From the NCBI GenBank assembly GCA_016176605.1, contig JACOWW010000002.1, positions 188,846-252,845 on the forward strand: DNA of 64,000 bases, read 5' to 3'. Source of the stretch: Candidatus Saccharimonadota bacterium (lineage in GTDB: Bacteria; Patescibacteriota; Saccharimonadia; Saccharimonadales; UBA10212). The position numbers and the translations under genes are program-made. The notes beneath the pieces are model-generated. The model searched no databases. It was not told where the DNA came from and saw nothing but the letters and a program-made list of their open reading frames with translations. Within the stretch, counting starts at the first letter, position 1; the number at the start of each line of letters is the position of its first letter. Shown here piece by piece: positions 5,322-45,125 of this stretch.

Positions 5322-5813
5322 TCATTTTTTTCGTTCGAGTATTAGGAAGTCGTAGTCGTAAGGATTTTTGTCGTCGGCCTTGTGCTCTTCACGAGAGATT
5401 TCGCGCCATTTTGATTCATCAAATAAGAAGAATTTATCGCCCTCAATCTTCGTGTGTATGCGGGTTAGATAGATACGATCGGCGAGCGGTAATGACCCCT
5501 TATAAATTTCTGCCCCGCCGATTATGAAGACTTCGGGATCGGCTTTAACTTTAGGCAGATTTAGAGCTTCATCGAGTGAGTGCACTACCACACAGCCGTC
5601 GGCAGCTTTGTAATCTATTTGACGAGTTATAACAACGTTATAACGGCCGGGTAAGCTCTTGCCGATGGACTCATGTGTTTTTCTGCCCATGATAATCGGG
5701 TGTCCCATTGTTGTATTTTTAAAGTGGGCTAAATCGGCCGGCAAATACCAAGGTATCCCGTTTTCTTTGCCGATAACATTATTTTTAGTGGCAGCAACTA
5801 TGAGTGAGATCAT
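5322..5813 (-). CDS. folA: Dihydrofolate reductase
   Basis: MISLIVAATKNNVIGKENGIPWYLPADLAHFK; MGRKTHESIG; VFIIGGAEIY. Confidence 0.95.
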   Translation of the reverse strand: MISLIVAATKNNVIGKENGIPWYLPADLAHFKNTTMGHPIIMGRKTHESIGKSLPGRYNVVITRQIDYKAADGCVVVHSLDEALNLPKVKADPEVFIIGGAEIYKGSLPLADRIYLTRIHTKIEGDKFFLFDESKWREISREEHKADDKNPYDYDFLILERKK

Positions 5814-5844: not shown

Positions 5845-6780
5845 TTAAACTGCAATTGGCGCAGATATGGCAGGATGCGGGTCATAGCCCACCAGTTCAA
5901 AATCATCAATTCTAAAAGCCGAGATATCTTTAACTTTGGGATTAATTTTCATTTTCGGTAACGGCTTAGGTCGGCGGGAAAGTTGTTCGTCAACTTGCTT
6001 GAGGTGATTTACGTAAAGGTGCGTATCGCCAAATGTGTGAACAAAGTCGCCTGGCTTCAGACCGCAGATTTGGGCCATCATCATGGTCAACAAAGAATAT
6101 GAGGCGATGTTAAATGGCACACCCAAAAAAGTATCGGCACTGCGTTGATACATCTGGCAGGAGAGTTTACCATTGGCTACATAAAATTGAAAAAGCAAAT
6201 GACAAGGCGGTAAGCCGGCTCTATTCATTTCTTCTATATCAGCCACGTTCCAGGCGGAAACAATGATCCGGCGTGAATCGCGATGGTTCGGATAAGTTTT
6301 GACTGCTTTGATGTTTTCTATCGCTTTGGCAATCTGGTCAATTTCGTTGCCGTCAGGTGTGCGCCAGTGCCGCCACTGATAACCATAGACTGGCCCAAGC
6401 TCACCCCACTTGGCGGCGAAGTGCTCATTATTTTTAATCTTCTTTGTGAACTTCCTGATTCCTGTCTGCCACTTCTCGCTATTAGTATCTGGCACCTCCT
6501 CGCCCTGCTCTTGTAAGTAGTGCTTATAGGGCCATTCGTCCCAAATATGCACGTCATTATCTACCAGATATTTGATGTTACTTGAACCTTTTAAGAACCA
6601 TATCAGCTCATGGATTATGCCGCGCATAAAAAGTTTTTTTGTGGTTACGGCAGGAAAACCTTTGGAAAGATCAAATCGCATTTGACGGCCAAAGACCCCA
6701 ATCTGGTCTACACCAGTACGGTTACTTTTCCTTATGCCGTTTGTTTTTATATCGCGTAAAAGGTCTAAGTACTGCCTCAT
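5845..6780 (-). CDS. thyA: Thymidylate synthase
   Basis: [58 protein letters not shown]. Confidence 0.95.
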
Positions 6781-9094: not shown

Positions 9095-10513
9095 TTACTC
9101 CTCAAAATTTGATTCTTTGCCTTTTTGCCAAGGAGCGTTCTGCAAAAAAGGCGCGAAAAGATCATCGCCGCTTATCGGGATATAAAAATCAGCTAGTTCT
9201 TTTTGGCTCGGGTTGTGCGATTGAAACTGAACGAAAGGTAGGTTTTCAATTATGGCAATTGGTGTTTGCTCAATCCCTTCGCCCATTTGTAGCGCCGCAG
9301 CCGCAGCCAGACCTCCGGCAACACTTGATATACTGACTTTGAATGGTCGGTCAAAGAGGTCGGGTTTACCCCGGTAGTCGTTGGCAGCTAAAAAACCGCT
9401 GTGTGAAACTACTATACCAACTGTGCCATAACGCAGTGGCATGACGGAACTATCGGTTATGATGACGCCAACTTTTTTAAGTCTAAAGCGCTTAACTAAA
9501 TATTCACGAATTTCATTGGCCGATTTCTGAGGCTCCTTGGGCCATAGTATGTAGTTACCATTACCGTTTGATTCATCGATTCCGGCCATAGGGATCAGGG
9601 TATTTTTGGTAATCGAGAAACTGATGCCGTATTTACTAAGTGAGGCCGGTAGATAATGTTTGGACTGTGTTTTTATCAGTTCTTCTTTGTCAATGCTGCC
9701 AATCGGAACAACATTTCCTTCACAAATAGCAACTATTTTGGATGTAATGGCCACTACCGAGCCTTCCTTAAGTGCGGCAAGATATTTATCGAGCAGTTCA
9801 AAAATAGTTGGCCCACCAGCTACTATCTTGTCTGTTTTAACCGTTTTTATGATCATACGGTTTTTTTTGTCTCCCTTTAACCACCACACCCCTAGATAGA
9901 CTAACGGTGTCTCAACTACAGACAGTGTACAGCGGATTAGCCAGTAAGGGATGATCAGGCTGAACAAAAAGCTTAGATTTGCTCCTAAACTTTCGTGCAG
10001 TGCGTAAAAAGCCAAGAATATAAAGACTGTTGAATCGGCAAACTGGGAAATGAAATTAGAAACGTTATTACGCAGCCAAAGTGCTTTCTTGTGCATTTTC
10101 TCACGTAGTTTAGCAAAAACTGCTATGTCCAGTAGTTCGGACACTGCAAATGCCGTTAAGCTGGCAGCCGATATACGGGCTGTGGCACTAAATATCTTGT
10201 CATAAGCCGATTCGGTGCTAGCGAATCTGTGTGACGGTGGTAAGTTGGTTGCTAGTAGCGAGAATAAAAGCAGTAGGGTGATAACAATCAAGCCTGACCA
10301 TACCAGGCTACGAGCCCTTTGCTTACCGTGGACTTCAACCACAACATCAGTCAGTGTAAATAGTAAGGGCAAAACGAATATTGCCACGCTGGCATTTAAG
10401 TGCATCCAGCTGAAGTTTGTCAGCGGGAACGTTTTGGGGCCAAAAATCTCAGCGGTCATTACGCCGAAGATATAAAGTGCTACAACCAAATCGAACTTGC
10501 GGATTTTAAACAT
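9095..10513 (-). CDS. Fusion: queuosine precursor transporter (YhhQ/VUT family) + CofE-like gamma-glutamyl ligase
   Basis: N-terminal ~220 aa multi-TM with VVVEVHGKQRAR and NFISQFADSTVFIF; C-terminal VVAITSKIVAICEGNVV, AGIDESNGNGNYILWP, VGVIITDSSVMPLRYGTVGI typical of CofE. Confidence 0.75.
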   Translation of the reverse strand: MFKIRKFDLVVALYIFGVMTAEIFGPKTFPLTNFSWMHLNASVAIFVLPLLFTLTDVVVEVHGKQRARSLVWSGLIVITLLLLFSLLATNLPPSHRFASTESAYDKIFSATARISAASLTAFAVSELLDIAVFAKLREKMHKKALWLRNNVSNFISQFADSTVFIFLAFYALHESLGANLSFLFSLIIPYWLIRCTLSVVETPLVYLGVWWLKGDKKNRMIIKTVKTDKIVAGGPTIFELLDKYLAALKEGSVVAITSKIVAICEGNVVPIGSIDKEELIKTQSKHYLPASLSKYGISFSITKNTLIPMAGIDESNGNGNYILWPKEPQKSANEIREYLVKRFRLKKVGVIITDSSVMPLRYGTVGIVVSHSGFLAANDYRGKPDLFDRPFKVSISSVAGGLAAAAALQMGEGIEQTPIAIIENLPFVQFQSHNPSQKELADFYIPISGDDLFAPFLQNAPWQKGKESNFEE

Positions 10514-10524
10514 CTTAACCTCCT

Positions 10525-10573
10525 CGTTAGTTTTTTGGGAGGTAGTTTTAAACTAGCTCCCCACGTAGGGAGC
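10525..10573 (-). promoter_or_regulatory. Riboswitch-like 5' leader with mutually exclusive helices including a Shine-Dalgarno sequester
   Basis: Minus strand GCTCCCtacgtGGGGAGCtagtttaaaactaCCTCCCaaaaaactaacgaGGAGGttaagATG. Confidence 0.45.
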
Positions 10574-10640
10574 AAAAATCAGCAAAACCCAGACCAAGTT
10601 CGAACTCGTTTGTTGTTGAGCATAATTTTAGTATTATAGC

Positions 10641-44868: not shown

Positions 44869-44910
44869 AACTCATGTCTCTCTCTTAATTATTTATCGAC
44901 CTCTTAAACC

Positions 44911-44939
44911 AAAAAACCTTTGGTTATAAATACCAAAGG
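44911..44939 (-). terminator. Terminator/attenuator-like hairpin in the L10 leader
   Basis: Minus strand CCTTTGGTATTTATAACCAAAGGTTTTTT upstream of rplJ. Confidence 0.65.
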
Positions 44940-45125
44940 CCTGAGTAAACTTGTAATCCTTCGACTTTGCTCAGGCCTTCAGCTCTGAGGCTCAGGCTCG
45001 AAGAGATTTCATTTCATCCAACCTCGGTAGCTCCGCCAACTGGCGGATTAAGCCCTGTATCTCAGGCGGCTACGGTCTTTGGTAACTGTAATAAATTTAG
45101 CACATCTACAAGGAGTTGGCAACAG

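Follow-up and report, generated by a model that had tools for sequence, protein, structure and literature searches.

In the ermC scheme of attenuation, segments of the leader RNA pair either as 1:2 and 3:4 or in an alternative 2:3 arrangement, while TnaC and SpeFL are metabolite-sensing arrest peptides. Stalling of ribosomes in the upstream open reading frames (uORFs) of ermB and ermC alters the structure of downstream RNA, ribosome-binding small molecules are known uORF inducers, and sensing of amino acids and polyamines by leader peptides has also been noted (PMC12121999). Here we analyzed a leader on the minus strand of a 64,000-nucleotide stretch of a Candidatus Saccharimonadota genome (contig JACOWW010000002.1, positions 188,846 to 252,845), hereafter referred to as the window. 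The leader spans the region from a DoxX gene to yhhQ-cofE, a gene that encodes a YhhQ-family transporter domain fused to a folate-type gamma-glutamate ligase. The 5′ half of the leader is a short uORF that was absent from an earlier description of the locus made from its letters alone (the sequence-only reading). We consider it likely that the element is a leader-peptide attenuator that responds to folate status.

The arrangement resembles that of ermCL-ermC and also of cat leaders, with a short uORF, helices 1:2 and 3:4 that would hide the Shine-Dalgarno (SD) sequence, and a 2:3 antisequester that would form upon covering of segment 1. It differs from them in its peptide, with 13 residues to the proposed pause site, and in its target, a vitamin-type transporter and folate ligase; judged by gene context, the inducer would not be an antibiotic. 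With TnaC and SpeFL the locus shares a conserved nascent peptide in front of metabolic genes, a pause that would act as the switch, and terminator or SD outputs. No sequence relation to these peptides was seen, and the candidate signal is folate-related, of which there is no example among arrest peptides in the literature searched.

The sequence-only reading had pointed to a resemblance to preQ1-I riboswitches (RF00522), with which the locus has in common a small leader before a YhhQ-family gene and a tail of the CTCCC-A-rich-CTAA type. Unlike these riboswitches, it gives no covariance-model match, has a different loop, is not kept in relatives and lies downstream of a coding uORF. When the Rfam check proposed in that reading was run, preQ1 models had no match in the leader even at E≤10 and none in the window at the gathering threshold, and RF00522 had none in the window's genome. 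No riboswitch family was matched in fifteen related loci carrying the uORF. Tetrahydrofolate riboswitches (RF01831 and RF02977) would similarly place the transport and synthesis of folate under folate control; however, they were matched neither in the window nor in the fifteen uORF loci, and the conserved unit here is a peptide. No earlier description of the leader was found in Rfam or in the literature searched. In open-access literature, we found no folate-linked leader peptide in bacteria of the Candidate Phyla Radiation (CPR), and neither TWSGF nor TWSSF was printed as a peptide in a relevant context.

Conserved leader peptide

Peptides matching the consensus M-[LIV]-x2-K-x3-T-W-S-[GS]-F are encoded across Saccharibacteria and other CPR lineages. 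In the window uORF, codons 1-13 end in the conserved T-W-S-G-F, with GGG as the Gly codon. The yhhQ upstream regions of six relatives from the same family, chosen without the use of the motif, all begin with an equivalent uORF (encoding MLHSKRIRTWSGFC, MLLCKRVTTWSGFVREASFFK, MLLNKRTTTWSSFAD, MLLNKRVTTWSGFAC, MVMNKRLQTWSGFIDETS and MLINKRTVTWSGFVDC), so, with the window included, the peptide is encoded in 7/7 yhhQ leaders picked motif-free at the family level. When the uORF motifs of 65 yhhQ loci were counted without a preset motif, TWSxF again proved to be the one shared most often (12 loci). Further uORFs were collected from scans of fetched loci and from pattern searches in 393 class and 382 phylum genomes. 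The peptide pattern matches the window's genome exactly once. Pattern matches L020, L023, L029, L158, L159, L161-L163, L166, L167 and L171, located inside long open reading frames (ORFs) or lacking a proper start, were dropped.

The collection contains 22 distinct type A uORFs, from the window, other Saccharibacteria and loci of other CPR genomes. In 21 of the 22, the Phe of TWS[GS]F occupies position 13 of the peptide. Every type A peptide has one invariant Trp codon, and T, S, G/S and F are encoded by varied synonymous codons; codon changes at conserved residues are mostly synonymous (AAA/AAG, CGA/CGG/CGC/AGA, ACT/ACC, TCT/TCC, GGG/GGT/GGC, TTT/TTC). The number of residues that follow Phe13 varies from 1 to 12. 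Judged by these codon patterns, the short uORF appears to be under selection at the peptide level, a feature of ermC/cat-type attenuators. The invariance of TWS[GS]F together with its fixed length from the initiator Met suggests that the nascent chain itself is read.

The TATAAT element noticed in the sequence-only reading was confirmed. Because it is located only 9 nt before the start codon, the mRNA of the window uORF is probably leaderless or nearly so. No −35 box was identified upstream of the uORF. A −10-like hexamer (at least 5/6 positions) was found 6-10 nt before the ATG in 12 of 26 uORFs, compared to 1.7 expected.

Alternative RNA folds and the SD

The three mutually exclusive helices of the sequence-only reading are present where it had placed them, with every element located on the minus strand (Table 1), and folding models uphold its claim that they hide or free the SD of yhhQ-cofE. 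Helix 2:3 is longer than had been noted: GGGAG-c-TAGTT/AACTA-c-CTCCC, 10 bp with one C.C mismatch. The 73-nt leader folds into the 1:2 and 3:4 hairpins with −20.2 kcal/mol; folds as stable were obtained for 3 of 200 dinucleotide shuffles (z −2.26). In the local fold of ribosome-free RNA, helices 1:2 and 3:4 form with probability of ~0.95 and the SD core is unpaired with probability of 0.01. Once segment 1 is covered, the probability of helix 2:3 rises from 0.03 to 0.90-0.97, and the SD core becomes unpaired at 0.56-0.79 with the mRNA covered to between Phe+14 and Phe+16 nt. Comparison with leaders of homologues, also proposed in the sequence-only reading, revealed that the three-helix design is kept in sister genome G015, where it shows the same behavior in folding models; the CTCCC-AAAAAACTAA tail is confined to these two leaders. 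In both, the flip from 1:2/3:4 to 2:3 occurs between Phe+12 and Phe+14 covered nt. The front edge of the ribosome is usually located ~15 nt past the first P-site base, so a pause at Phe13 or codon 14 fits the flip point, and the edge of a ribosome that has paused on Phe13 is predicted to fall at segment 1. A pause at Phe13 or codon 14 flips the modeled window RNA to the open state, an effect not seen with a stall at the Trp codon.

In eight other leaders, a single hairpin pairs directly with the SD. Its 5′ arm begins 7-13 nt past the Phe codon, and the leaders start opening with cover to between Phe+6 and Phe+18. With cover ending at Phe+3, which corresponds to a stall at the Trp codon, none of the ten translational leaders opened (SD unpaired ≤0.27). 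Anti-SD complementarity in the spacers exceeds that of dinucleotide shuffles (Fisher p 1.6e-5 for 11 leaders; the strongest, G012, 0.0055). In six loci (G630, G632, G420, G672, G028 and L120), the place of the anti-SD hairpin is taken by a GC hairpin with a U-run behind it, as read by eye. Since the terminator-like hairpin stands in the anti-SD position, transcription attenuation probably operates there instead of translational attenuation. The models thus predict, as for ermC/cat-type attenuators, that the SD is sequestered in the default fold and that a paused ribosome would free it; the latter prediction, made in silico only, is weaker in longer folds.

Table 1. Features of the leader and of neighboring genes in the window, and loci with the second leader peptide type
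Feature	Position	Strand	Details
DoxX gene	ends 10641		upstream of the leader
−10 box TATAAT	10638-10633	minus	9 nt before uORF ATG
Leader-peptide uORF, MLNNKRVRTWSGFC*	10623..10579	minus	14 codons; ATG 10623, TGA 10581-10579
Segment 1, GCTCCCT	10573-10567	minus	5′ arm of helix 1:2; starts 11 nt past Phe13 codon
Segment 2, GGGGAGC-TAGTT	10551..10562	minus	GGGGAGC part 10562-10556
Segment 3, AACTA-C-CTCCC	10537..10547	minus	anti-SD; CTCCC part 10541-10537
A-rich tail AAAAAACTAA	10536-10527	minus	follows CTCCC
Segment 4, GAGGAGGT	10518..10525	minus	SD of yhhQ-cofE; GAGGAGG 10525-10519
Start codon of yhhQ-cofE, ATG	10513-10511	minus	
yhhQ-cofE gene	9095..10513	minus	472 aa; YhhQ-family transporter domain (PF02592, TIGR00697) and folate-type gamma-glutamate ligase
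Thymidylate synthase (ThyA)	5845-6780	minus	PF00303, 1.2e-114
DHFR-like ORF	5322-5813	minus	assigned from its sequence
Second leader peptide type	L098 3897; L042 1394; L133 1831; L148 3792; L130 upstream of 4001		

Genes behind the leader

The targets of the 22 uORFs are yhhQ alone or with cofE (15), cofE alone (1), NlpC/P60-like genes (3, one of them with cofE next), a folE operon (1, in G028), folB-folK (1, in G463) and an unknown gene (1). The yhhQ-like targets are mostly accompanied by a TIGR04132-like folate gamma-glutamate ligase. A DHFR-like, FolC, CofE, FolE or ThyA homologue is found within ~4 kb in 38 of 63 related yhhQ loci, often as the next gene; the neighbors seen are DHFR-like, FolC, CofE and ThyA homologues, and queuosine genes were not searched for among them. 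The window has its own ThyA gene and DHFR-like ORF ~2-4 kb past the end of cofE. A true FolC match was not found in the window's family.

The CofE-like domain has its best match to TIGR04132 (putative folate gamma-glutamate ligase) with 236 bits, below the cut-off of 350; by sequence it is nearest to this family, yet not a curated member of it. The YhhQ domain passes the cut-off of TIGR00697 (queuosine precursor transporter; 121.6 bits, cut-off 50.95). The queuosine rationale of the sequence-only reading is nevertheless weak, because the same leader peptide precedes folB-folK, the folE operon and a stand-alone TIGR04132-like ligase. Given the uORF targets and the folate-gene neighbors, the YhhQ-type transporter is more likely an importer of folate or pterin than of a queuosine precursor. 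YhhQ and CofE form one ORF in the window and are separate genes in G015, where they slightly overlap, and in other relatives; the single ORF would be a recent fusion or an assembly-level indel.

Several further observations were made at these loci. Genomes G109, G183 and G232 each contain two yhhQ paralogues, one near the window's gene and one distant (~30% identity); the distant one may be the real queuosine precursor transporter. In L028, a 201-aa protein without a Pfam or NCBIfam match is encoded between the uORF and folE (1623-2225) and is possibly an unknown folate-pathway protein. A second leader peptide, M-N-x-R-[VT]-[ND]-x3-[NS]-[YF]-S-P-[HQ], precedes yhhQ in five loci of other CPR lineages; a pattern search for it in the 382 phylum genomes gave no match. 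It is rich in His/Asn/Tyr/Asp codons. These codons would fit sensing of queuosine-tRNA, but such neighbors as were identified are once more DHFR-like, FolC and CofE genes. In L139, from an uncultured CPR genome, positions 809-1076 match a group I intron (57.4 bits) at a distance of ~3 kb from the yhhQ locus. Elsewhere in the window, positions 44901-45100 of the minus strand match the Rfam L10 ribosomal protein leader (RF00557, 50.8 bits).

Proposed mechanism and alternatives

We propose that transcription begins near the ATG of the uORF, whose 14 codons would then be translated by a ribosome. If the ribosome runs through and leaves, 1:2 and 3:4 would pair, the SD would be hidden and yhhQ-cofE would be off. 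If instead it pauses while its P site holds Phe13 or codon 14, segment 1 would be covered by the front of the ribosome, segment 2 would capture segment 3, and the freed SD would allow the transporter-ligase to be made. In other CPR lineages, the same peptide would act on a simpler anti-SD hairpin or on a terminator-like hairpin. Most likely, the nascent peptide and a folate-related signal would jointly determine the pause, with low folate turning on genes of folate/pterin uptake, synthesis and polyglutamylation. Folate status is favored as the signal because the targets share a folate theme. It might be read as folate bound inside the tunnel or via the formylated state of the initiator Met. 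The formyl-Met version draws on the fixed 13-residue length, on the presence of Fmt in the window's genome and on the near-leaderless start in the window's family, which would tie initiation directly to the initiator tRNA. More tentatively, and as a possibility rather than an expectation, CPR-wide arrest peptides may sense folate, either tunnel-bound or as the formyl group of their own initiator Met, with SD release or antitermination as outputs and with the missing CPR folate/pterin importer in the regulon.

Several points weigh against a folate-responsive attenuator. Arrest of the ribosome in the uORF is something we infer, as is the folate signal, for which gene neighborhoods are the only basis. 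For the window leader alone, anti-SD complementarity does not exceed chance (p 0.28). In longer folds, a footprint limited to Phe13 gives partial SD release in the window (0.20 to 0.32) and lowers rather than raises it in G233. Reversed control patterns also gave matches in the class and phylum pattern searches, about half of the forward phylum matches were chance ones inside other ORFs, and the uORF is absent from most yhhQ loci of other lineages. For the NlpC/P60 targets of G630 and G672, a role as folate genes is not clear, and the target in G420 is unknown. TGT is present elsewhere in the window's genome, making queuosine salvage possible there. On the other side stand features read from the sequences themselves: the conservation and placement of the peptide, the alternative folds with their geometry, and the folate neighborhood.

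It appears unlikely that the uORF senses translation stress in general or antibiotics, in the manner of ermCL or toiL. The leader shares with ermC the choice between 1:2/3:4 and 2:3, but in almost all lineages the targets are folate and vitamin genes and not resistance genes, and the strict TWS[GS]F with its fixed 13-residue length suggests a dedicated signal. Stalling in ermB and ermC uORFs and small-molecule inducers that bind the ribosome are known precedents for such a uORF (PMC12121999).

We regard passive translational coupling, with the peptide sequence irrelevant to stalling, or a small protein with a function of its own as very unlikely. Stop codons are often found near the hairpin, so that a terminating ribosome would open it too. 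However, coupling has no need for a conserved TWS[GS]F that keeps a constant spacing to the start, the C-terminal stretch past Phe13 is variable in length, and in other lineages a terminator-like output takes the place of the anti-SD one.

There is likewise scant reason to believe in charging-type attenuation, where the uORF would stall at its Trp codon when Trp-tRNA is scarce. The invariance of this codon would be expected, but when Trp occupies the A site, the ribosome would cover the mRNA only up to roughly where the Phe codon ends; with such cover, the SD stayed closed in 10/10 leaders tested. Moreover, the conserved Trp codon is single where several are expected, T, S, G/S and F are equally conserved, and the targets are not tryptophan genes.

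Finally, it is extremely improbable that the uORF is incidental and that the SD is controlled by a ligand-binding RNA, be it a new one or a diverged form of the preQ1-I riboswitch: the tail does resemble preQ1-I, the gene belongs to the family of queuosine precursor transporters and the genome contains TGT, but the Rfam searches described above gave no riboswitch match, the tail is limited to two leaders, the region 5′ of the helices is coding and conserved as peptide, and across lineages it is the peptide with its anti-SD or terminator output that is conserved, with no RNA aptamer and no RNA sequence common to the leaders.

Reduced CPR bacteria are thought to exchange folate with their hosts, and homologues of known folate transporters were not found in the CPR genomes examined in that study (PMC11974145). 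If folate-responsive attenuation is indeed what the leader provides, a folate-linked leader-peptide regulon would extend across several uncultured CPR lineages. The yhhQ subfamily, usually found beside DHFR-like, FolC or gamma-glutamate ligase genes and partly under the leader, would be a direct candidate for the CPR folate transporter. Folate or formyl-Met would then possibly add a new class of signal to the short list of metabolites read by nascent peptides.
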